Assembly (NCBI GenBank): GCA_016873795.1 | Contig: VGWA01000007.1 | Span: 1-51,644 of the forward strand | Direction: 5' to 3' | From: Ignavibacteria bacterium | GTDB lineage: Bacteria; Bacteroidota; Ignavibacteria; Tepidaquicellales; Tepidaquicellaceae | DNA length: 51,644 bases | Part shown: positions 4,903 to 42,857 of the stretch, one piece after another | Numbering within the stretch: the stretch's first letter is position 1 | Layout of the letters: every line of letters starts with the position of its first letter | Position numbers and translations under genes: made by a program | Notes under the pieces: model-generated | What the model saw: the letters and a program-made list of their open reading frames with translations, nothing else | The model's database searches: none | Told to the model about the DNA's origin: nothing

Positions 4903-6117
4903 TTATTTAGATAAAATCATTTTCTTGGTAAGATTGAAGTTTTTCGCAGTCATTTTGTAGAAATAAATTCCACTTGACAGGTTACCGGCGTTGAAAATTA
5001 CTTCATATTTTCCGGGTGCAAGATTTTCGTTTACGAGAACTGCTATTTCTTTTCCGAGAATGTCATAAATTTTCAGGGAGACATTTCCGGATTCCGGGCA
5101 TTGGAATACAATGGTTGTCCGTGGGTTAAAGGGATTAGGAAAGTTTTGTTCGAGGGAGTATGACAGCGGTATGTATCCCGGTTTTTTTGTGATGCCGGAA
5201 ATTATTTCGTCTAAATTCCTCTGCCAGACTGAGTAATCCCATGTTCCTGCGAAAATATAAGTATTTGTCGTGATTAATGTACTCACAGACATATTTCCGA
5301 AGCCCTGATTTTTTTGTATCCAGGTCTGACCGTTGTCCGTTGAGAGGTAAACACCGTTTTGTATCGTACCGGCAAATATATTGCTGTCTTTGACTGTGAG
5401 AGATAAAACGGATTTGTCGTTAAGGGAAGTTTGTATCCAGTTTATTCCGTCGTTTGTGGATAAATATACTCCGTGATAATATAGTCCCGCAAAGATATTG
5501 TTTCCGCAGACTGCAATTGACCTTACGTATTTATTGTTAATTTCAGTCTGAATCCAGTTGGCTCCGTAGTTAGTCGAAAAATGAATTCCGTGTTGATATG
5601 TACCTGCGAAGATTTTATTGTCTTTTACTGCAAGGGAATAGACATCCGGAACGTTGAGAGAAGTTCTGATCCAGTAGTAGCCGCTGTCCGGCGAGAAATA
5701 GACGCCGTCGTTTGCACCGGCAAAAACATATCCTTCGGATAAAGCAAATGCACGAATTATTTTATTATTGAGTGAAGTCAGTATCCAGTTTGTTCCGTTG
5801 TTCGATGACAGATATACTCCATTTGCAATTGTTCCGGCAAGTGTGCTATTTCCGCAGATTGACAGGGCTGTTACATAACCTGTGTTAAGGGATGTCTGAG
5901 TCCAGTTAATTCCGTTATTTGTTGTAAGCCTCACTCCGAAATCGTAAGTACCGGCGAAGATATTGTTTCCGCTTATTGCAATTGAATATATTGTGATATT
6001 TCCCATCCCGCCTGACACTTGAAACCATTGTCCGTTGCATTTACCGGCAGTAAATAAAAAATTTATAAATATAGAAAGAAAGATGATAATACCTGAAATA
6101 TTTATTATCTTTTTCAT
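4903..6117 (-). CDS. Secreted seven-bladed Asp-box propeller protein, T9SS sorted (copy 4)
   Basis: The 404-residue protein has a signal peptide (about residues 1-28), seven Asp-box repeats (LTTNNGINW to the degenerate SVWQRNL), and a C-terminal T9SS type A domain (QNFPNPFNPRT, IYDILGKE, SGIYFYKM). It is the most diverged of the four. Its sorting domain reads NPRTTIVF rather than the NSMTN of the others and ends KKMILSK. It is the first gene of the minus-strand array and probably the start of the transcript. No Shine-Dalgarno is visible upstream of the ATG. Confidence 0.84.
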   Translation of the reverse strand: MKKIINISGIIIFLSIFINFLFTAGKCNGQWFQVSGGMGNITIYSIAISGNNIFAGTYDFGVRLTTNNGINWTQTSLNTGYVTALSICGNSTLAGTIANGVYLSSNNGTNWILTSLNNKIIRAFALSEGYVFAGANDGVYFSPDSGYYWIRTSLNVPDVYSLAVKDNKIFAGTYQHGIHFSTNYGANWIQTEINNKYVRSIAVCGNNIFAGLYYHGVYLSTNDGINWIQTSLNDKSVLSLTVKDSNIFAGTIQNGVYLSTDNGQTWIQKNQGFGNMSVSTLITTNTYIFAGTWDYSVWQRNLDEIISGITKKPGYIPLSYSLEQNFPNPFNPRTTIVFQCPESGNVSLKIYDILGKEIAVLVNENLAPGKYEVIFNAGNLSSGIYFYKMTAKNFNLTKKMILSK

Positions 6118-6531
6118 TATACAGAATTTATATTAAATTATTTTTTATCTTTGACTAACACCAGTGCGATTATTAATATACCGCTCATTTGATTTTCATA
6201 TTATTCTTGAACGAAATGTAATAACATTAATTTTTTATTACAAGTAAATAATTTATTAAATATTGCGATATTTTTTAAATAGTTGTTTTTTATGTAAAAT
6301 ATATAAAACCGTAAATAAAAAAAGGTTGCCTCAGGGATATTAAAATTCTGAAGTAATAGTGAGCTTATTACGGATAGTAAATATATGATAAAGATTCAGC
6401 GCCTTATAATTATATCAGTGCAGGACAAACCGATAATTTGTTGAATTGCAGTTTACTAATAGATATTTTTGATCAAGTTATTATTACCTTAATGAAACGA
6501 ATGAAGTAAATCAGTTAAAGCCCGGTAATAT
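6118..6531. other. Non-coding stretch, 414 bases
   Basis: Very AT-rich. It holds the presumed promoter region of the propeller array but shows no convincing -35/-10 pair. One small inverted repeat, GTAATA (6353-6358) and TATTAC (6366-6371), could form a weak hairpin. The decamer GGTTGCCTCA near 6324 recurs near 7395 in the next long gap. I see no gene. Confidence 0.5.
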
Positions 6532-7781: not shown

Positions 7782-9020
7782 ATGTTTTCGGAAATAAGAC
7801 GCTTGCCATTGTTTGCTATCGATATATCTATTGGAGTTGAACTGATAATTATTCTGGTAATTATGGCAATAATTGCTTTGATATTTATATTTTGGTGGAT
7901 TGACCGAAGTAAGTCGAAGAAAGCGTATAAAGAAGATTACAAGAAGTTTATGACCGAGCACGATATAAGCAAATTGAAATTAAATGACTTAAAAAAATTC
8001 AGTGAAAAATTCGGTCCGATACCGGATATGAGTGTGATTACATCGGCTGTGTTTGAGGTTTATGAAAACAAGCTTAGGGAATATGTAATACAAAACACGG
8101 AGCATTTTTATTCGGAAGTAAAAAATCTGAGGGATATAATAGATATTGAGTTAAAGGAGAAGAACAGAAGAATAAAATCAGATAAGAAAATAGGGCTTGG
8201 TTTATACAAAGAAATACTTGATAAGTTTCTTGAGGATAATATATTGACGAAGGAAGAGCTTGACAAGTTAAACGAGATCAAGGAATATTTTTCATTGGAT
8301 TTAAGTGAAACCAAGGCGTTGATAGAGCAAAAAGGAAAAGATAAATTCAGCGGAATGGTAGATGATTTTCTTCAAGACGGTTTTCTTTCGGATGAAGAAA
8401 AAAAATATCTTATCCATTCGGTAGGGGATTTGAAAATCACGAGTGATGAAGCGAAAGCAATTTTTCTTTTAAAAGCAAAGGAAAAACTCGAACAGTTTGG
8501 AAACTCGCTTATAGAAAAGGCACAGGATGAAATGATATCTGACGATGATTTTGCAGAATTTTTGAGTATGGCAGTGAATTTCAACGTATCTTCTGAATCT
8601 TTTTCCAGGTTCGATGTTCTGAAAAATTATAATGAAAACTATAATATTGAACACGGTATAATAAAAGCAGTCGAACCGGATGAAGATATACTTGAAAGCG
8701 GGGAGAAATGCTTCTATATCGGACCGGTAAATTTATATACTCATAAGATAATTGGTTCGGTCGAAGAACATTCACCGGAAATAAGAGGTAAAATTTATTT
8801 AACCAATAAAAGATTAATCGTAAAAGGTATTGGGGGAATCAGGGAAATTCCGTTCAGGGATATTGTTGTCTTTCTGAGGGAAAAGGAAGGTGTGATTATT
8901 ATCGAAACAGTAACAAAACACGATTATTATATTCTTTTTACGGAAGAGGGCGACAAGAAGAAGACAATGAAGATATTTTATAAGGTCTATAAGGAAAAGG
9001 ATAAGATAAAAATAATATAA
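7782..9020 (+). CDS. Membrane-anchored protein with three helical repeats and a PH-like C-terminal domain
   Basis: The 412-residue protein has one N-terminal membrane helix (about 18-39) followed by a basic stop (DRSKSKK), so the rest is probably cytoplasmic. Residues 145-190, 191-236 and 237-282 are three helical repeats, each with an acidic turn of the type F-L-x-D-x-x-L-[TS]-x-[ED]-E (FLEDNILTKEE, FLQDGFLSDEE, AQDEMISDDD). These recall TerB-like acidic repeats. Residues about 305-405 resemble a bacterial PH/GRAM domain (GKIYLTNKRLIV is the usual signature, then IPFRDIVVF). The combination suggests a lipid- or protein-binding membrane sensor or scaffold. It stands alone between convergent and divergent neighbours. 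The fold assignments rest on motif recognition only. Confidence 0.65.
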   Translation: MFSEIRRLPLFAIDISIGVELIIILVIMAIIALIFIFWWIDRSKSKKAYKEDYKKFMTEHDISKLKLNDLKKFSEKFGPIPDMSVITSAVFEVYENKLREYVIQNTEHFYSEVKNLRDIIDIELKEKNRRIKSDKKIGLGLYKEILDKFLEDNILTKEELDKLNEIKEYFSLDLSETKALIEQKGKDKFSGMVDDFLQDGFLSDEEKKYLIHSVGDLKITSDEAKAIFLLKAKEKLEQFGNSLIEKAQDEMISDDDFAEFLSMAVNFNVSSESFSRFDVLKNYNENYNIEHGIIKAVEPDEDILESGEKCFYIGPVNLYTHKIIGSVEEHSPEIRGKIYLTNKRLIVKGIGGIREIPFRDIVVFLREKEGVIIIETVTKHDYYILFTEEGDKKKTMKIFYKVYKEKDKIKII

Positions 9021-9065
9021 TATCTGAAATTCCCTGTAGTAAAAAGTTTTTATTTGTTTTTTTTC

Positions 9066-11591
9066 CTATCTGATGAGAATCATTTTCTTTATGTCGGAAA
9101 ATTTTTCTGTCTTTAAGGTATAAAAATATGTTCCCGAGGGCAGCGATTCAGCATTGAACGATATAATATAAAACCCTGCTGAAAGTTTTTCGGTTATTAA
9201 ATTTTTTACAGTTCTACCCAGTATATCGTAAATTTTCAATTCTACAAAACCGGATTCGGTAACTGCAAACTTTATATTTGTTTCAGGATTGAAAGGATTC
9301 GGGTAGTTTTGTTCGAGTTTGTATTCTGTTGGTATTTCTGTTCCCTGCTTGCTTATTCCGACGTATGTTGTCCATCTTGCGGTTTCTACTATTGCATTAT
9401 AAAGAGTAATTGTGACAGTGGAATCGTTTCCTGTACTGTCCGGTGATGTGTATGAACCTGTTCCGTTTCCTGTCCATCCGCGGAATTGGTACAACGTTCC
9501 GTTATAATTAAACAATCTTGATAATACTCCGAATGTTCCGGTTGCGGCAGAATCATAAAATATGTTTCCCCCGAAAGTATTTCCTACAGTTGAATTTATG
9601 ATTAATTTAAACTGGACTTTATAATATGCCGTCAGGTTCATAGTACCGTTTACCGATATATTGTGTGTTGTATCTCCGAAATCTGACCAGTTTAAAAACA
9701 CATACTGATTACCGCCCTGTACTTTCGGGCTTACCGCCTGTATATTCATTACCGTTCCTGTCGGAACTGTAAATAATTTTCTTGTTGTGTATTCAATTCC
9801 GTCAACTTTATAAGTAACAATTCCCTCGCGGTTTGTTCCTATGGAAACACTTGACATATTTACGAGTACGTACAAATATCTTCTGTGTACGGGTGTTCCG
9901 TCTGAACCTGCACCGTATACAGCAATTTTATAAACTCCAGTAACCGCAGACGCAGGAGTTGTTATTTTGAAGTTCAGCGAATCCGGATAACCCGTCAGCG
10001 AATCTTTTCCGATGAAGTTAAAATTGATATTTCCTGAAGGGGGAGCAGAATCGAGTACCGCAGTGAATTTTACTCTGTCGTTAAAAGGTCCTTTAACGGA
10101 CGGTATTTTAATTCTTATGATTGCACTGTCGTTGTTTGTAAGAGAGAGGTTATCTTCTGAAATCGTCATCGCAAAATCCGGATAATATCCGGAATAACTT
10201 CCCAGATTATTCTTTCTGGCATCCATCCAGCAGTGCCATGCAGTTTTTCGGGTCGGATTGTTGCCAATGTAATCTCCTATATAATATGCCTGACCGCTGC
10301 CCTGACCGACTGCCATGTTGTTTGGATTGAAACTTACTGTTGTAACAGGTTGATTTGGCAGAAATGAACTGCCTCCGTTTGTTGATACTGCACTGAATAT
10401 TTGTGTCATCAGATTTCCTGTTGTGTCCACTCTTGAATCATACCATGTAACTATAATTCTACCGTTTAAATCTACCGATACGGCAGGCATCCATTGATCT
10501 GTCGTTGTCAAATCATCGTTGACTCTTAAAGGTGTTGACCAGGTTTGACCGTAATTTGTGGATTTTACCATAAATATGTCTGCTTTGTCGGCTCCTGCAT
10601 TCGGGTTAGCGGCATAAACCACATATACATTGCCTCTGTATGTTCCGTAACTGTTATCTGCTGCCATTCGCGGAAAGTAATCCGTACGGATGCAGTTTTT
10701 TACCGTGTATCTGCCGTTGCAAATTGTACCGGGACCGACTATATAAGGTGTTGCTAGTGTATATGCACCGAATGTCTGTCCGCCGTTTGTTGAACGATAT
10801 ACTATTATGTATCCGGAATACGCTGCGGCAAAATATACCGAACCGCCCTGTAAGGATTCTCCCGGTCCGACAGAAATGTACGCCCCCTGGTCTCCGGTTA
10901 ATGTGGTTGCAGCAGACCAGGTTTGTCCACCGTCTGTACTCCGGCAGAATCTCATACCCGATGAACCGAACTGACGCCAGCCCATATATAAGTAATTACT
11001 GTAAGGTCCGGCTGTCTGGTCTGATGAAATCCACTCTTTATCGGCAAGTCCTACCGTAGTTGAGTAAACACTTACAGGCGGAAGCCAGCTGATTCCTTTA
11101 TTTGTTGATTTTACTACGGCAATTCCGTATATGTTTCCGTTTTGATATAATGTCCCGTAATACACATTCCCGAGACTGTCGTAAGTTAATACAGGGTCAC
11201 CGACAACGTTGTATCCTGTGAATGACGGAATATTTTTTGTCCAGTCAATACCGTTTAAAGTATAGTATAAATTATTTATGTTAAAAGCGCATACTGCATT
11301 TAACGGGTCACGCGGATTTGAAACTATATAAGGTTCGCCGAAATCGACTCCCAGATAAAAATTATCATAGCCGCCTGTTGTTTCGACTATACTCATAGTT
11401 CCTTTCGGTGATATTATATAGTTTTCCGGTTGCTTCACTACTGAAGGCAATTGTGAATAATCGGGATCATCTATCTGTGAAAACGACTGCCAGTTTATCA
11501 GAAATATAAACAGAAAAATGGCTGTATATATTTTGTAATTTTGTTTACTGTTAAAATTTTTTAACGCTGATTTGATAATAAATTGATTCAT
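9066..11591 (-). CDS. Large secreted sialidase-fold (BNR) protein with T9SS sorting domain
   Basis: The 841-residue protein starts with an N-terminal signal anchor (about 20-40, ending WQSFSQ). Residues about 60-480 form a sialidase-superfamily propeller with Asp-boxes such as SGMRFCRSTDGGQTWS, STNGGQTF and STNYGQTWS. Residues about 490-590 look like an Ig-like or NPCBM-type strand-rich domain, and 590-750 like a repeat-type cell-surface domain (YYKVQFKLIINSTVG). The C-terminus is a T9SS type A domain (QNYPNPFNPET, IYDILGRT, SGTYFYTLK). The classical RIP motif and arginine triad of true sialidases are not obvious, so an exo-sialidase activity should not be assumed. It is convergent with the PH-like gene, with only 45 bases between them. 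Confidence 0.78.
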   Translation of the reverse strand: MNQFIIKSALKNFNSKQNYKIYTAIFLFIFLINWQSFSQIDDPDYSQLPSVVKQPENYIISPKGTMSIVETTGGYDNFYLGVDFGEPYIVSNPRDPLNAVCAFNINNLYYTLNGIDWTKNIPSFTGYNVVGDPVLTYDSLGNVYYGTLYQNGNIYGIAVVKSTNKGISWLPPVSVYSTTVGLADKEWISSDQTAGPYSNYLYMGWRQFGSSGMRFCRSTDGGQTWSAATTLTGDQGAYISVGPGESLQGGSVYFAAAYSGYIIVYRSTNGGQTFGAYTLATPYIVGPGTICNGRYTVKNCIRTDYFPRMAADNSYGTYRGNVYVVYAANPNAGADKADIFMVKSTNYGQTWSTPLRVNDDLTTTDQWMPAVSVDLNGRIIVTWYDSRVDTTGNLMTQIFSAVSTNGGSSFLPNQPVTTVSFNPNNMAVGQGSGQAYYIGDYIGNNPTRKTAWHCWMDARKNNLGSYSGYYPDFAMTISEDNLSLTNNDSAIIRIKIPSVKGPFNDRVKFTAVLDSAPPSGNINFNFIGKDSLTGYPDSLNFKITTPASAVTGVYKIAVYGAGSDGTPVHRRYLYVLVNMSSVSIGTNREGIVTYKVDGIEYTTRKLFTVPTGTVMNIQAVSPKVQGGNQYVFLNWSDFGDTTHNISVNGTMNLTAYYKVQFKLIINSTVGNTFGGNIFYDSAATGTFGVLSRLFNYNGTLYQFRGWTGNGTGSYTSPDSTGNDSTVTITLYNAIVETARWTTYVGISKQGTEIPTEYKLEQNYPNPFNPETNIKFAVTESGFVELKIYDILGRTVKNLITEKLSAGFYIISFNAESLPSGTYFYTLKTEKFSDIKKMILIR

Positions 11592-29050: not shown

Positions 29051-30112
29051 TTATTTAATTAAACTCATTTTTCTAACTTCACTGAATCTGCCTGCAGATA
29101 ATTTGCAGAAATAAGTTCCTGATGGGTGTTTTGAAGCATCCCATTTAATTTCATATATCCCGGGTATCAGAAATTCGTTTATGAGTGTCTCTGTCTCTCG
29201 TCCCGTAATATTGTATATTATTAAAGAAGTGTTTACCGATATCGGAATGTGAAATCTGATTATAGTCGAGGGATTAAACGGATTCGGATGGTTTTGTTCT
29301 AATAAAAAATTTTCCGGCTTAATGCTGGATATATTTTTTATGATTGTAGGTTGAACTAGTTCCATAATATCTCCCGGTATTGATATCGAATAGGGTAATC
29401 CAAGGGTATCCAGATTAAATTTAATCGAAGGTGAATGCTTTTTTATAAACCATACATCCTGTGCTATCCATGAAGTGTCGGGCTTTTCGAAAATTTTTAT
29501 CGGGATTATACCTAAGAACATATAACTCAGATTAAAATAATGTACGAATTTTTTTGCAGTGTATGTTCCGTTTACCGTGCTGACACTCTGGTCATTCAGA
29601 CGTCTCGCTTCAACTTTTATTCTCATAGGATAATTTGTTCCGTTAATACTTACAGTAGTATCTTTTTGGAAAAGGGTATATAACGAATTTACAGCCTGTG
29701 CAAATCTGTAACTGTTATACCATTTTTCCAACGATTTTATCCATTGATAAAACCCGAGTGTGTCAAATAATGTTGAATCAAGCATGTTTGTAATTTTCAA
29801 ATATTCCCATGCATTCGTAGTCTGAAAATTGTAAAAACCTGAATCTGTATACGGGGCATTTTGTGTCAGATTTATCAGATTCTTTTTGGATAGTACTATA
29901 CTTGCAAGTAATTGCTGGTAGTTTTCTACTACGGCAAATGAATCTATTCTGTATGTCGTTAGTGTCGTCACAGGATTGTTATTGCTGTCTAAAGGTGTAA
30001 CTTTGAAATACCATTTGTAACCTGTGCTTGCAGGAAAATATGTCGAAGCATTCTGACTGTATGCTTGTAATGCCGTTAATATAATTATTAGGAATAATAA
30101 TTTTACTTTCAT
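29051..30112 (-). CDS. Secreted protein with T9SS sorting domain
   Basis: The 353-residue protein has a signal peptide (about 1-18, MKVKLLFLIIILTALQAYSQ). The body of about 250 residues has no family I recognise; it begins YFPASTGYKWYFKVTPLDSN, a phrase seen in many secreted proteins of this group, and is rich in predicted strands. The C-terminus is a T9SS type A domain (QNHPNPFNPST, IYNITGRE, SGTYFCKLSAG), so it should be exported across the outer membrane. It is convergent with the phospholipase-like gene, 19 bases apart, and is a single gene. Confidence 0.78.
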   Translation of the reverse strand: MKVKLLFLIIILTALQAYSQNASTYFPASTGYKWYFKVTPLDSNNNPVTTLTTYRIDSFAVVENYQQLLASIVLSKKNLINLTQNAPYTDSGFYNFQTTNAWEYLKITNMLDSTLFDTLGFYQWIKSLEKWYNSYRFAQAVNSLYTLFQKDTTVSINGTNYPMRIKVEARRLNDQSVSTVNGTYTAKKFVHYFNLSYMFLGIIPIKIFEKPDTSWIAQDVWFIKKHSPSIKFNLDTLGLPYSISIPGDIMELVQPTIIKNISSIKPENFLLEQNHPNPFNPSTIIRFHIPISVNTSLIIYNITGRETETLINEFLIPGIYEIKWDASKHPSGTYFCKLSAGRFSEVRKMSLIK

Positions 30113-37319: not shown

Positions 37320-38633
37320 ATGGAAGAGAAAAAAACTAACTTATTTGAGGATTCGACTGTTACGGATCCGGAAACCCAGAAAAGGATCGAACAAAAGGTA
37401 AATGAACTGATTGAAAGCAATGCTACGATTGTCCAGATTAGGAACTATATTGAAAATAAAAGCATGGAAGATATAGAGAAGAGGAAATGGGGAATATTTT
37501 TAAAATCAGGTTTGCCATCATTCATCGTTTTAATTGTATCGTTCTTCTTTGATGTTGGTACTGTTCCTATATTAGGTAATGTTGCCGATGGACTTGCAAA
37601 GATGATTTATCAACCTGAACAGATAATAGAGGCAAAAGAAAGCGTGGCGGTTCATGCGGTTACTTTATGGTGGTTCCCGCTTATTACTTATGTACTGTTT
37701 ATGTTCTTTGGATGGATTGCTCATAGAGAATTGAAGAGGGAAATTGAGTCAGCAGTAACCTCCGAAAGAATGATTGACTATATAATCGAAAAATATACCG
37801 GTATAGTCGACGGCATAGGTACTGCACTTCCGTTACTCGGTGCTGCAATTCTGTTGATTTCTATTAAATTGGGTCCGACAATATTCTTGGGATTTTCGGT
37901 ACCTTTTGAAATTAAAGCAATCGTAATTCTCGCAATGGCAAAACTGTTCGGCGGTGTTTTTGAATCACTCGGTCTTGAATATCAGGCGATAGTTCAGAAA
38001 ACAAGCGTTATCGAACAGGAATATTATCATGGACTACAGGAAAAAATGCAGATTGACCTGTTAACTGAAATTAAGGAATCCAACGAAAGACTGTTCACCA
38101 AGGCATTGGCGGGCGGAGATAGAGCAGCTTCTGGATTTACCAAGGAAGACCTCCAAAAAATGTCTGATCTTGTTAAAAATACTACAGAGTTAAATGCTGT
38201 GTTTACTAAAAACATTGTTGAATTTAAAAATGCCGCAGCAGGATTAACCGGTGTCAAGATTTTTGATGCCGAATTCAGCAAACAAATTGAAAGCGCAGCC
38301 GGCTCACTGAAAACAATTGCTCATGCTGTGGAGAATTCTTCAAAAGACGTTCTTGCTACAATTAAGAGTCTTGCCGATACTCTCGTAATGGCAACCGACG
38401 GCATAAAGCAATCGGCGGATTATTCTAAAGATTATACTGTTACATTGAAAGAAAGTCTGGAAAGTATCAGAAATATTGTTGCAGAAATTAATAACATAAA
38501 GCTTCCCGATGAAAAAATTATGAAGGAACTTCAGATGACAGCTCATTTCCTGAACGAAACGATTAATAATCTGAAAGATGCGGCTGCTTCTAAGAGTCTG
38601 GAGAACCTTGTATATCTTGCTGGAAAGAGATAA
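37320..38633 (+). CDS. Four-TM protein with long helical cytoplasmic tail, candidate MotA/ExbB/GldL-like channel subunit
   Basis: The 437-residue protein has hydrophobic segments at about 59-77, 112-134, 162-190 and 198-220. The last two form a hairpin rich in Gly and small residues (GTALPLLGAAILL; AKLFGGVFESLGLEYQAI), reminiscent of the channel helices of MotA, TolQ and ExbB. The 215 residues after it are charged, helical and coiled-coil-like, with no signal-transduction motif I can name. The gene is followed after 33 bases by a one-TM protein with an extended periplasmic part and then by a predicted outer-membrane protein. In Bacteroidota the T9SS motor is a GldL-GldM pair with a similar arrangement. 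Assignment to that class is an inference. A ZorA-type tail also comes to mind, but no ZorB partner is present. Confidence 0.5.
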   Translation: MEEKKTNLFEDSTVTDPETQKRIEQKVNELIESNATIVQIRNYIENKSMEDIEKRKWGIFLKSGLPSFIVLIVSFFFDVGTVPILGNVADGLAKMIYQPEQIIEAKESVAVHAVTLWWFPLITYVLFMFFGWIAHRELKREIESAVTSERMIDYIIEKYTGIVDGIGTALPLLGAAILLISIKLGPTIFLGFSVPFEIKAIVILAMAKLFGGVFESLGLEYQAIVQKTSVIEQEYYHGLQEKMQIDLLTEIKESNERLFTKALAGGDRAASGFTKEDLQKMSDLVKNTTELNAVFTKNIVEFKNAAAGLTGVKIFDAEFSKQIESAAGSLKTIAHAVENSSKDVLATIKSLADTLVMATDGIKQSADYSKDYTVTLKESLESIRNIVAEINNIKLPDEKIMKELQMTAHFLNETINNLKDAAASKSLENLVYLAGKR

Positions 38634-38666
38634 AACTATAATTTTTAAATTTAATTTTAAAAGACT

Positions 38667-39584
38667 ATGCATAAACGAGATGTAAAATTCATCATCTATC
38701 AGGTATTATACATAACCCTGTTAGCGATATTAACTTTGAAGGGTACGGATATCAATCTTGAAGAGGTTGTCGATAAAACAAAAGTTGTTGAAAAGGCAAA
38801 GCTGGATTCAATGAGAGCAGCAATGGATACATTGTTGAAAAAAATGACTCAAACAGTTGATTCTTCCGAATACTTGAAACTTTTGGAACAGATGGCTGCT
38901 CTTCAACATCAGCAAATTATTCAGCAGCCATCGTTTCAGACAGGCGGAGTTTACATTCCTCCCCCTGGGCAGCAGCAACAACAACAACAGCAACAACAGC
39001 AGCAGCAACAACAGCAGCAACAACAGCAGCAGCAATCTATTAGACTGAATCCTCCTTCAAATATAAAACAGTTTTCGACTTATGTGTTTTCTAATCCGAA
39101 CGACCAGCCGATGGAAGTTGTCGGCGACGGACAGGTATTAGGAACTATTCCGCCGAAAGGCTCCAGACCCGTTAAAATAGGAGGACAAAAATCATTGGTT
39201 CTAAGAATAGGAACTTCAAGCTCTGCTCCCGCAAGTACGATTCCAAATGAAAATCCCAGTGTAACAGTATCCGTTAACGTTCCTATGGGCGGTGGGATTT
39301 CTGTTAGGTCATTAATGGGAAAATCTATATTCAAAGTTTCTATCAGCGACGATGTCCCTCAAAGTGTATCGGTTGGTGTAACCTCAGGTCCGGCTACTAT
39401 TTCAAAAACTTCGGATAATGTTTATTACGTTAATTTGAATAAGGTATTTGCAAACGAAGATGCTTACGACAGATGGCGTGAAGGCAAATCCAAACCTTAT
39501 AATCTGTCAATAGGAATTACAGTGAAAGATATAAACGGATACTCAAGAACTTTTAATCAATCCGTTACTTTCGGAGAGTGGTAA
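38667..39584 (+). CDS. One-TM envelope protein with 22-residue glutamine tract, candidate GldM-like partner
   Basis: The 305-residue protein has a short basic N-terminus (MHKRDVK), one membrane helix (about 8-25, FIIYQVLYITLLAILTL) and a helical segment (31-85). A proline-glutamine linker contains 22 consecutive Gln (residues 102-123). The C-terminal part, about 180 residues, is strand-rich (about 124-305). The N-terminus resembles that of GldM, where a basic residue precedes a helix ending in ALN-x-SKE. The rest lies outside the inner membrane. It is 33 bases after the four-TM gene and 66 before the outer-membrane gene, so the three look like one operon. The C-terminal family is not recognised. 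Confidence 0.55.
   Translation: MHKRDVKFIIYQVLYITLLAILTLKGTDINLEEVVDKTKVVEKAKLDSMRAAMDTLLKKMTQTVDSSEYLKLLEQMAALQHQQIIQQPSFQTGGVYIPPPGQQQQQQQQQQQQQQQQQQQQQQSIRLNPPSNIKQFSTYVFSNPNDQPMEVVGDGQVLGTIPPKGSRPVKIGGQKSLVLRIGTSSSAPASTIPNENPSVTVSVNVPMGGGISVRSLMGKSIFKVSISDDVPQSVSVGVTSGPATISKTSDNVYYVNLNKVFANEDAYDRWREGKSKPYNLSIGITVKDINGYSRTFNQSVTFGEW
38970..39035 (+). repeat. CAG/CAA trinucleotide tract encoding 22 glutamines
   Basis: Twenty-two consecutive Gln codons, a mixture of CAG and CAA in irregular order. Changes in copy number would keep the frame and alter only the length of a periplasmic linker. The mixed codons should slow replication slippage compared with a pure CAG run. Long polyglutamine is uncommon in bacteria. 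Confidence 0.95.
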
Positions 39585-39650
39585 GATTAAATTTGAGATT
39601 GATTTATTGTTTTATATAGTATATTTTAACATTTAAATAAATATAAATAT

Positions 39651-41279
39651 ATGAAAAATTTCTATACACCTTTGTTGTATTTCGTTATTATTCTATTTCT
39701 GATGATTTTCCCCCAACTTGCAGGGGCGCAGGTTGAAGAGGAAAATTATGACCCGGAATACAGAATATTAACGAAATTCGTATATTATAATACAGTAGAA
39801 GACCCGGATTCAACTTTATCGATAACTGTTGATTCTGTAAGCGGACAGATAAGCTATAATGTCTCTTATAAAGACGTGAACATAAGTCCGAGATTTTGGA
39901 CTCAGCCCCTTGCCGGAGTTACTCCCGGACCCGGTGACGGCGGAGTAACTACAACGACACCCCGTGACACTGCTCCACCTAAAGTATTCGGTAAAGCAAA
40001 GATAAAATCCGAGATTCTGGATATGGATGACGCTCAGACATTCAGATTCTTCAAAGTCGGTTATATGGCAGAGAATCCTTCTGATTCTACTTTTATAATT
40101 ATTTTACTGGAATTGGGATACGATAAAGCGGATATTCTTCCGAGTTCCAACATTGTCGTTGATTATGATGGGGATAGAGTATGGATGGGTGATTATGATA
40201 TTGAGGCTATGTTACCTTTTGCTCCCGCTGGTGAATCTGTCTTTACAAGATTATCAACACAATTACAGGAATTTCTTTTGAACTATTCCGATAAAGCAAA
40301 TAAAATCAACCTCGGAAAATCCCCAATCAATCTTGCAACGGTTTTCACTTTTTATCCGGAAAACATTAAACTAAAAGACCTAGTCCAGCCTCCGATGAGA
40401 TACAGCAGGGGAATTCAGACAACAACCGCATATATTAATCCTTATGCACAGCTTTTCGGAGGTGAACCTGTCGGAATTCCTATAAAAGAATCGGTCGGTT
40501 TTTCACTCTTTCAGGGTACTCCGTATTCCGGTCCTTTTGAATGTGATAGATTAGGTGCTGCTTTTAATATTTTAGGCTTTTCTGTTGGAGTATCTACCCG
40601 TATAAAAGAAACTGTGTGGATGAGAAAAGATACCGTAGTACTTGATAATCACATCTTCGGATATTATAATAACATATATACTCCATGGCTTGGTCTTGAA
40701 CTTAAATATGTGTTTCCATTCGGAAATTATTTGGAACTGGGCTATTTTCAGTTCCTCAGTGACGGCTGGTGGGGTAAAGAATACCCTATTGTAAAGGTTG
40801 TAAATCAACAGGAACTGAGAAAAAGAGGATATCAAAATTATGATTCGGCATTACATTCAAATGACCCGACTTTGTTTATGAAAAATAATGATATTGCCTA
40901 TGGCGGAAATTTCTTCAACTGGGAATTAAGATATCCGTTCCAGATTCTGAGGTCAACAAGAGCCAAAGTATATGCTGCGCAGTATTTTGGAGAGTTTCAT
41001 TTTGGATTCACAGGCAGGGATTTGCAGGTAAGAACCCCTAAAGGTATCGGAGTTTTTGATTTAAGAATTGACGCAACAATGAAATCACAAAGAAGAGATT
41101 TTCAGATTTTAATCGAAACTCTTATCGCTGGATTTTCGGAAGACTTTGCAATGACTTCATTTGCTATTGGTCCTTCTTTGCGTCTGGGTAAGAGACCGTC
41201 CGGTAAATTCGGTGCGTTGACTATAGCAATCAATCTGAGGTTGAAACTCGGTGACTTTACATTAACTAAAGGATACTAA
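39651..41279 (+). CDS. Predicted outer-membrane beta-barrel protein
   Basis: The 542-residue protein has a signal peptide (about 1-26, ending LAGAQ) and a strand-rich body. The N-terminal 230 residues look soluble (with a Pro/Gly/Thr-rich loop at about 90-115). The remainder alternates aromatic and polar residues in short strands (FSLFQGTPYSG, LELKYVFPFGNYLELGYFQF, FHFGFTGRD, LTIAINLRLKLGDFTL), as in membrane barrels. I do not recognise the family; length and context differ from PorP/SprF. It follows the candidate motor pair and is closed by a strong terminator 22 bases after its stop, consistent with it being the last gene of a three-gene operon. Confidence 0.6.
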   Translation: MKNFYTPLLYFVIILFLMIFPQLAGAQVEEENYDPEYRILTKFVYYNTVEDPDSTLSITVDSVSGQISYNVSYKDVNISPRFWTQPLAGVTPGPGDGGVTTTTPRDTAPPKVFGKAKIKSEILDMDDAQTFRFFKVGYMAENPSDSTFIIILLELGYDKADILPSSNIVVDYDGDRVWMGDYDIEAMLPFAPAGESVFTRLSTQLQEFLLNYSDKANKINLGKSPINLATVFTFYPENIKLKDLVQPPMRYSRGIQTTTAYINPYAQLFGGEPVGIPIKESVGFSLFQGTPYSGPFECDRLGAAFNILGFSVGVSTRIKETVWMRKDTVVLDNHIFGYYNNIYTPWLGLELKYVFPFGNYLELGYFQFLSDGWWGKEYPIVKVVNQQELRKRGYQNYDSALHSNDPTLFMKNNDIAYGGNFFNWELRYPFQILRSTRAKVYAAQYFGEFHFGFTGRDLQVRTPKGIGVFDLRIDATMKSQRRDFQILIETLIAGFSEDFAMTSFAIGPSLRLGKRPSGKFGALTIAINLRLKLGDFTLTKGY

Positions 41280-41300
41280 TTCCTGCATAATTAGTTTGAT

Positions 41301-41329
41301 AAAAAAACCCGCTTTAAGCGGGTTTTTTT
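41301..41329. terminator. Bidirectional intrinsic terminator
   Basis: AAAAAAA-CCCGCTT-T-AAGCGGG-TTTTTTT is symmetric: CCCGCTT (41308-41314) pairs with AAGCGGG (41316-41322), flanked by seven A and seven T. It serves both converging transcripts. The last two T bases lie inside the rsmB stop codon (minus-strand TAA at 41330-41328), so terminator and stop overlap. Confidence 0.92.
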
Positions 41330-42857
41330 ATTGCTTTTTTATCAACCTCGCGGCAAACCCTCCGTCTGTCTTGTGTGTATGAGGAAATACCTCCATAAAT
41401 CCCTCCGTGTTTACTACTTGTTCAGGGAGATAATTTCCCGCATTTTCAATTTTGAAATCCTGATTTTTTTCAAGGAATAATTTTACTACTTCTGAATTTT
41501 CCTCCTGCTCGGTAGTGCAGGTACTGTAAACTAAAACACCTCCGGGTTTAAGGTATACCTTGGAACTTTCAAGAATTTCGATTTGAATTTTCTGTAGCTC
41601 GATTATGTCTTCAATTTCCCTTTTCCATTTAATATCCGGCTTTTTGGTAATTACGCCGAATCCTGAACATGGTGCATCAACAAGTACTTTATCGACTCTT
41701 CCTATCAGTTTGCTTTTTAGAGTTTCACTTTTTGGTTCCGCTATGTCGTCGTATAATAATATCGTGTTTTTTATTCCTAGTCTCTCAAGATTGGCTTTTG
41801 TCGTTTCTACTCGTGATAAATATTTGTCTAAAGCGATAATTTTTCCGGTTCCGTTCATAAGTTCTGAAATATGAGATGTTTTTCCGCCCGGTGCCGAACA
41901 TACATCCAGTATGACTTCATTTTCTTTCGGTGATAGTAACAATGATACTAAACCTGCACTATCATCCTGTATCGTGAAATAACCTTTTTTGAAGTATTCG
42001 TCTTCGTAAATTTTTGACATTGTCTTTGTTGAAAAAAAATTTTCTATGTACGGCGATTTTCTGTATAATAAATTCTTTTCTTTCATAATTTTTTCGAATT
42101 CCTCAGAGGTAATTTTTTGAGTGTTTACTCTTATCGATAAAGAAGGTCTGATATTATTTGCCTCGCATAACTTTTGTGCTTCGTCGAATCCAAAACGGTT
42201 TATCCATCTCCGTACCATCCAGTTCGGATGAGATTGGATTATTCCGAGATAGTTTACTTCGTCTATTTCTCTCGTAGGCCAGACTAATGAATCGAGTGTC
42301 TTGATTATCGTTCTTAATAATCCGTTTACAACTCCCGCGTGTTTTTCTCCCCGCGTTCTTTTTACAAATTCTACAGCTTCGTTTACCGCTGCAGAATATG
42401 GAATTTTGTTAAGAAATAAAATCTGATATAGTGCCACTCTTAATGCATTTTTCACTTCGGGTAGGCATTTCTCGTACTGACCCCTGTAAAATCCGTTTAA
42501 AAACCAGTCAAGACGTCTCATCCATCGGATTACTCCGTGTGTTAATTCATTTAATAAAGACTTATCAAAATCGTTTAACGTCGAATTTCTTAATTCCGAA
42601 TCAACCAGTTTATCGAGATATGAATCGGTCCTTTCGCATCTGCATAAGATTTTTACGGAACATGACCTCGCATCCGAGTAAAGATTTTTATTTGAATTAT
42701 ATTCTTTGAATTGTTTTTTACTGCGTGTGAATTGTTGTTTTTGAACAGTCGTTTCGGGAGTTTCCGGTTTCAGTTCCGTGTTTAGTGCATTAGTATCATC
42801 GTTTTTACTATCTGTTTCGGAATTTTCACCGTTTTTTAAATTATATTCTTCATTCAT
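41328..42857 (-). CDS. rsmB: 16S rRNA (cytosine-967-C5)-methyltransferase
   Basis: The 509-residue protein methylates C967 of 16S rRNA with SAM. It has a NusB-like N-domain (about 60-200) and a RsmB/NSUN methyltransferase domain with the SAM motif LDVCSAPGGKTSH, the acidic LDKYLSRV, DAPCSGFG (first catalytic cysteine) and YSTCTTEQEENSEVV (second). It has a low-complexity, acidic N-terminal extension of about 60 residues (rich in N, E and T) not usual for the family; there is no in-frame Met between it and the NusB domain. It ends with KLIKKQ just inside a shared terminator. The DinG-type helicase lies upstream on the same strand after 85 bases. Confidence 0.93.
   Translation of the reverse strand: MNEEYNLKNGENSETDSKNDDTNALNTELKPETPETTVQKQQFTRSKKQFKEYNSNKNLYSDARSCSVKILCRCERTDSYLDKLVDSELRNSTLNDFDKSLLNELTHGVIRWMRRLDWFLNGFYRGQYEKCLPEVKNALRVALYQILFLNKIPYSAAVNEAVEFVKRTRGEKHAGVVNGLLRTIIKTLDSLVWPTREIDEVNYLGIIQSHPNWMVRRWINRFGFDEAQKLCEANNIRPSLSIRVNTQKITSEEFEKIMKEKNLLYRKSPYIENFFSTKTMSKIYEDEYFKKGYFTIQDDSAGLVSLLLSPKENEVILDVCSAPGGKTSHISELMNGTGKIIALDKYLSRVETTKANLERLGIKNTILLYDDIAEPKSETLKSKLIGRVDKVLVDAPCSGFGVITKKPDIKWKREIEDIIELQKIQIEILESSKVYLKPGGVLVYSTCTTEQEENSEVVKLFLEKNQDFKIENAGNYLPEQVVNTEGFMEVFPHTHKTDGGFAARLIKKQ

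Follow-up and report, generated by a model that had tools for sequence, protein, structure and literature searches.

A conserved three-gene envelope unit of Ignavibacteria as a candidate proton-driven motor with its own outer-membrane partner

The stretch of DNA analysed here (the window: 51,644 nucleotides of contig VGWA01000007.1, assembly GCA_016873795.1, from an Ignavibacteria bacterium) contains three neighbouring genes on the plus strand, labelled A, B, and C, which form a genuine, conserved three-gene unit that is unannotated and previously undescribed. Judged from their sequences, the three genes probably encode a divergent proton motor resembling GldLM that acts on an outer-membrane partner of its own. 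We favour this reading because the order A-B-C is kept, A and C co-occur, residues E197 and K199 of A are invariant, the third transmembrane (TM) helix of A is GldL-like, motor chains are among the Foldseek matches of A, and domains of B and C are found fused. The first-pass annotation of the window called three open reading frames at this locus, giving A four TM helices and a long helical tail and B one TM helix and a large external part, all of which is borne out (Table 1). No earlier description of the triad was found in the literature on the type IX secretion system (T9SS), Ignavibacteria, and 5:2 motors, a coverage that excluded preprints and many journals.

Conservation of A-B-C goes far beyond chance, and B and C adjoin A. 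A single-sequence search finds A in 47 of 245 genomes of the class, the same number as a profile of 29 A sequences, and a C profile matches 49 of the 245, among them all 47 that carry A. Within the window's own order, an A profile search finds A in 41 of the 44 genomes listed for two families. A scan of 84,980 species returned 79 distinct loci for A homologues, nearly all from Ignavibacteria; their record titles name Ignavibacteria, Ignavibacteriae, Ignavibacteriales, Melioribacteraceae, Chlorobi, Bacteroidetes metagenome-assembled genomes, and one 'UBP2' bacterium. Among the first 30 homologous regions fetched, the gene order is A-B-C wherever the region is long enough, and public loci show the same order except for short or masked contigs and one locus with a mis-called A. 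The UBP2 candidate bacterium of locus L131 stands taxonomically apart from the other matches; B and C are found there and A is matched by tblastn only. Four variant clusters (L042, L050, L051, and L052) carry a short A (approximately 230 amino acids where complete) and a short B, with two extra secreted proteins preceding C and the immunoglobulin (Ig)-like part of B appearing as a separate protein.

The first-pass annotation had suggested a check for conserved charged residues in TM3 and TM4 of A, and these are present: E197 and K199 of TM4 are invariant in all 88 aligned sequences (88/88), as are P171, L172, G174, A175, L179, F189, P195, L204, A205, and L209, while D164, T168, and K208 are nearly invariant. 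The short A variants of approximately 230 amino acids also retain E197 and K199. In an AlphaFold2 model built from 53 sequences, the TM3-TM4 hairpin runs into a long cytoplasmic helix. The mean predicted local distance difference test score (pLDDT) of this model is 69 and the tail is poorly predicted, while TM3 and TM4 (residues 149-184 and 186-264) score 78-98 by blocks over most of their length. The tail shows alpha periodicity (z 5.9). Comparison of A with the PDB using Foldseek places TolQ, ExbB, MotA, or PomA chains at 18 of the top 50 positions, TolQ being the commonest motor subunit, and the best matches are coiled coils aligned to the tail. The motor ring subunits in this list are suggestive of a motor and no proof of one.

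An alternative in which A, B, and C are not a motor at all but a passive scaffold, a channel, or a signalling relay across the envelope is unlikely. It would account for the lack of significant homology between the triad and any motor; the very long tail of A could likewise be a scaffold or signalling element, given its weak match to a coiled coil of the methyl-accepting chemotaxis protein type. For a mere anchor, however, keeping charged residues such as E197 and K199 invariant within a TM helix would be costly, and a hairpin protein followed by an axle-like partner is the order of motor pairs.

The motor that A and B most resemble is GldLM/PorLM. In both systems a ring-type gene is followed by the gene for a one-TM partner, and the last TM helix of the ring subunit, which leads into a long cytoplasmic tail, carries a strictly conserved glutamate. 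In GldL this glutamate is E49 of TM helix 2 (TMH2), an essential residue that is strictly conserved (PMC8986121). TM3 of A resembles TMH1 of GldL and the TM helix of B resembles that of GldM, though weakly in sequence. These likenesses were scored using profile comparisons written for this analysis, in ungapped and gapped versions, set against control TM families and permutations preserving hydrophobicity classes; the GldL and GldM alignments were built from 12 and 18 Bacteroidota sequences, respectively. In the ungapped version, residues 165-186 of A against residues 14-35 of GldL (TMH1) score 27.6, the 15 control families reaching at most 16.9 (p 0.003), and the TM helices of B and GldM score 18.3 against at most 14.6 for controls (p 0.07); the corresponding p values are 0.12 for ExbB with A and 0.85 for ExbD with B. 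The gapped version gives 27.6 for GldL with A, the best of 21 controls reaching 24.0 (p 0.025), and p values of 0.03 for GldM with B and 0.075 for ExbB with A. The two systems also differ. The GldL-type ring subunit has two TM helices whereas A has four; the axle of GldLM/PorLM is approximately 510 amino acids with four domains whereas B has 305 amino acids and two Ig-like domains; and the triad lacks neighbouring GldK and GldN, its third gene encoding a beta-rich exported protein instead. None of the triad matches the GldL and GldM models TIGR03513 and TIGR03517, which do find the canonical proteins in Bacteroidia controls.

In protein B, the near-invariance of residues in the TM helix (Table 1) and of D5 just before it extends to 71-77 of 76-77 sequences. 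D5 itself is kept in 74 of 77 and sits at the membrane edge with R4 and K7 around it. Two Ig/cadherin-like domains are predicted with a pLDDT of about 90 or more, and the linker joining them to the TM helix is helical and weakly predicted. Foldseek was also tried as a means of placing B, but the Ig/cadherin-like folds it finds are too widespread to assign the protein. Among the aligned B sequences shown, the run of 22 glutamines in the linker is specific to the window's genome.

Other motor families share parts of this plan. Like the MotAB and PomAB stators, A has four TM helices, the last two forming a hairpin, and MotA and PomA occur among its (non-significant) Foldseek matches. PF01618, the MotA/TolQ/ExbB family, is nevertheless matched neither by the window's A nor by 53 A members, although the same model does find the genome's own single MotA_ExbB-family protein, encoded elsewhere. 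B also differs from its stator counterparts in that its TM helix has no mid-membrane acid, D5 lying at the edge, and in having no match to a peptidoglycan-binding domain, OmpA-type included, in Pfam searches of the window and of aligned homologues. The ring subunit of ZorAB has a long cytoplasmic tail, as A does. PADLOC defence models gave zero matches for A, B, or C, which separates the triad from Zorya, as does an exported beta-rich protein as the third gene product.

In TolQR-TolA-Pal and ExbBD-TonB, too, an inner-membrane pair acts on an outer-membrane partner, and the triad might be a Tol-Pal-like machine that ties together the outer membrane, cell wall, and inner membrane, or draws the outer membrane inward at division. 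We consider this improbable. It shares with the triad the general plan of a multi-TM/one-TM pair with an outer-membrane partner, TolQ is frequent among the structural matches of A, and LysM and small lipoprotein genes border the triad in most members of the family to which the window belongs. These genes, however, are not beside the window's own triad nor, in the fetched regions, beside those of other families, and the absence of a peptidoglycan-binding match in B speaks against the idea. Moreover, the triad has no match to these families and no TonB- or TolA-like protein, the TM helix of ExbD aligns with that of B no better than shuffles do, and the genome already carries a separate MotA_ExbB-family protein.

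C is an exported, beta-rich protein. Its single hydrophobic helix is N-terminal and signal-like, and residues 255-542 show beta periodicity in a moment test (z 3.6 at 165 degrees) with no alpha signal, while a cruder strand count is no better than for shuffles. The export signal and beta periodicity agree with the outer-membrane protein predicted by the first-pass annotation; its outer-membrane location and barrel fold are putative and deduced from these features. C matches neither GldN nor any Pfam family. Its N-terminal domain is mobile and belongs to no named family. Proteins L226_9, L228_5, L230_8, L235_6, L227_7, L237_7, and L238_5 carry this domain, the hosts ranging from short proteins (about 120-260 amino acids) to larger ones, of which one contains TPR repeats and another has a match to the RHS repeat.

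The arrangement of this domain in other genomes suggests that B meets C. Genomes G132 and G070 have a split B together with a second secreted protein that joins the N-terminal domain of C to the second Ig domain of B. One such fusion, L054_9 (8499-9341), matches the C domain at E 1.1e-9 and the Ig domain at E 3.4e-25; for the other, L053_6 (5354-6163), the values are 0.0031 and 7.4e-16, respectively. Such fusions suggest that the B and C domains work together. B is split in another way in four other genomes, where a secreted protein resembles its second Ig domain (hhalign probability 49). Paralogs of C are present in several genomes without A or B. In four Ignavibacteriaceae genomes (L229, L231, L232, and L234) they lie beside SLBB/Poly_export and Wzz/Wzc-type (tyrosine-kinase-type) proteins, in clusters for polysaccharide biosynthesis and export.

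We propose that A, B, and C form a trans-envelope machine of the GldLM/MotAB kind, driven by the proton motive force. Several A subunits would ring a dimer of B, and protons would pass via E197, with D5 of B at the membrane edge as a second candidate. Proton passage would turn or bend the B axle, whose distal Ig domain may contact the N-terminal domain of C and so gate or move C in the outer membrane. A more tentative idea is that C serves export through the outer membrane, as its paralogs occur in polysaccharide-export clusters. A stronger version of this proposal is possible but doubtful: that the triad is the first representative of a distinct family of proton-driven envelope motors, related only distantly to GldLM. 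It would then work on an outer-membrane protein of its own directly, needing neither GldK/GldN nor TonB nor Pal, and possibly drive export across the outer membrane.

Several observations weigh against a motor of this kind. None of A, B, and C has a convincing match in Pfam, NCBIfam, or PADLOC, in keeping with the first-pass annotation's statement that the C-terminal domain and the barrel match no family known to it, and their aligned homologues have no convincing Pfam match and no match to a motor family among PDB sequences. Foldseek returns nothing for A in the PDB at E < 0.001, and no GldL chain is in the 50 matches listed. Comparisons of A with GldL and B with GldM using hhalign are not significant, nor are those with ExbB and ExbD. 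The method has little power here, since GldL and ExbB, both accepted 5:2 ring subunits, fail equally when compared with each other. Between GldLM itself and MotAB, no sequence homology is clear either (PMC9389320). The permutation p values are modest, uncorrected for several comparisons, and come from tests devised here. The best alignment of GldL with A spans TM3 and not the glutamate, so the equation of E197 with E49 relies on where E197 sits in the last TM helix and on a gapped alignment that is not significant. The splitting of B into separate TM and Ig proteins in some genomes complicates a rigid axle. Finally, the fusions linking B to C occur in two related genomes, the weaker at E 0.003, and the polysaccharide-export clue comes from paralogs rather than the triad's own C.

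The first-pass annotation went further in linking the triad to the T9SS, and the state of this system in the class gives the idea some force. In Melioribacter and Ignavibacterium, the T9SS proteins present are reported to be limited to PorV, SprA, and Plug (PMC11705866). Across the class, the SprA model is over its cut-off in 242 of 245 genomes, yet the GldL and GldM models are so in 0/245 and the GldN and GldK models in 0/41. Across the phylum, the GldM model has matches in 18 of 80 genomes, and canonical proteins score high with the GldL and GldN models; the GldK model had no such control here. In the window's own genome, gldL and gldM, whose absence the first-pass annotation had proposed to check, are indeed missing at these cut-offs, as are gldN and gldK. 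A complete gldKLMN set combined with helices free of conserved polar residues, which it had named as counting against a motor, is thus found in neither respect. Of the at least six T9SS substrates claimed for the window, four are borne out by a sorting domain.

On these grounds the triad could be the T9SS (or gliding) motor of the lineage, having replaced GldLM where GldKLMN was lost; the GldL-like TM3 would fit such a role. We regard this as quite unlikely. A is present in 47 of 245 genomes and not detected in the other 198, so most T9SS-bearing relatives manage without the triad. Furthermore, no T9SS gene adjoins it in the window, and C resembles neither GldN nor a Pfam family. A role in T9SS export was therefore set aside on distribution. 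Of the parallel with GldL-GldM drawn by the first-pass annotation, the motor-like anatomy (E197 and K199, the GldL-like TM3, and the motor subunits in the Foldseek list) is supported, and the T9SS link is not. Given near-universal SprA, the proposed GldLM-like motor is a candidate for the window's own order and not an answer for the whole class.

A and B are separated by 33 bp and B and C by 66 bp, and a strong terminator closes the unit. The genes flanking the triad are presumably queA-like and rsmB-like, named from a reading of the sequence without a family scan. In the Ignavibacteriaceae loci L045-L048, the triad is preceded, a few genes upstream, by a gene for a UPF0164 outer-membrane protein, which we take to be PorV-like from its N-terminal motif judged by eye.

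Table 1. Positions of the triad, its parts, and other features in the window.
Feature	Position	Strand	Description
Gene A, putative ring (stator) subunit	37320..38633	+	437 amino acids; four TM helices; both termini predicted cytoplasmic
A, TM3-TM4 hairpin	37803..37949	+	Residues 162-210; most conserved part of A
A, codons E197 to K199 in TM4	37908..37916	+	E197 candidate proton-carrying carboxylate; invariant 88/88
A, cytoplasmic tail	37950..38630	+	Residues 211-437; long helices; length varies, last ~70 residues conserved
Gene B, putative axle subunit	38667..39584	+	305 amino acids; one TM helix, then periplasmic part
B, TM helix	38682..38744	+	Residues 6-26; K7, F8, Q12, L14, Y15, K25, G26 nearly invariant
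B, polyglutamine run in linker	38970..39035	+	22 residues; mixed CAG and CAA codons
B, two tandem Ig/cadherin-like beta-sandwich domains	39063..39581	+	Residues ~133-305
Gene C, putative outer-membrane barrel	39651..41279	+	542 amino acids; signal peptide, N-terminal domain, beta-rich C-terminal region
C, N-terminal domain	40038..40391	+	Approximately residues 130-247; elsewhere occurs by itself or joined to other proteins
C, beta-rich region	40413..41276	+	Residues 255-542; profile conservation
Intrinsic terminator closing A-B-C	41297..41333	+	17-pair stem; strong; just downstream of C
Four T9SS type A sorting-domain proteins	1454-2677, 4906-6117, 9069-11591, 29054-30112	-	TIGR04183 above cut-off

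In Ignavibacteria, the sprA translocon gene is almost universal and the known motor genes are found by curated models in none of the genomes sampled. A T9SS translocon without a known motor had been noted for two genera (PMC11705866) and is seen here, by these models, in the class genomes sampled. The triad is a concrete and testable candidate for part of what powers the envelope machines of Ignavibacteria and, if the proposal is true, may represent a new branch of the small family of ion-driven 5:2 motors.

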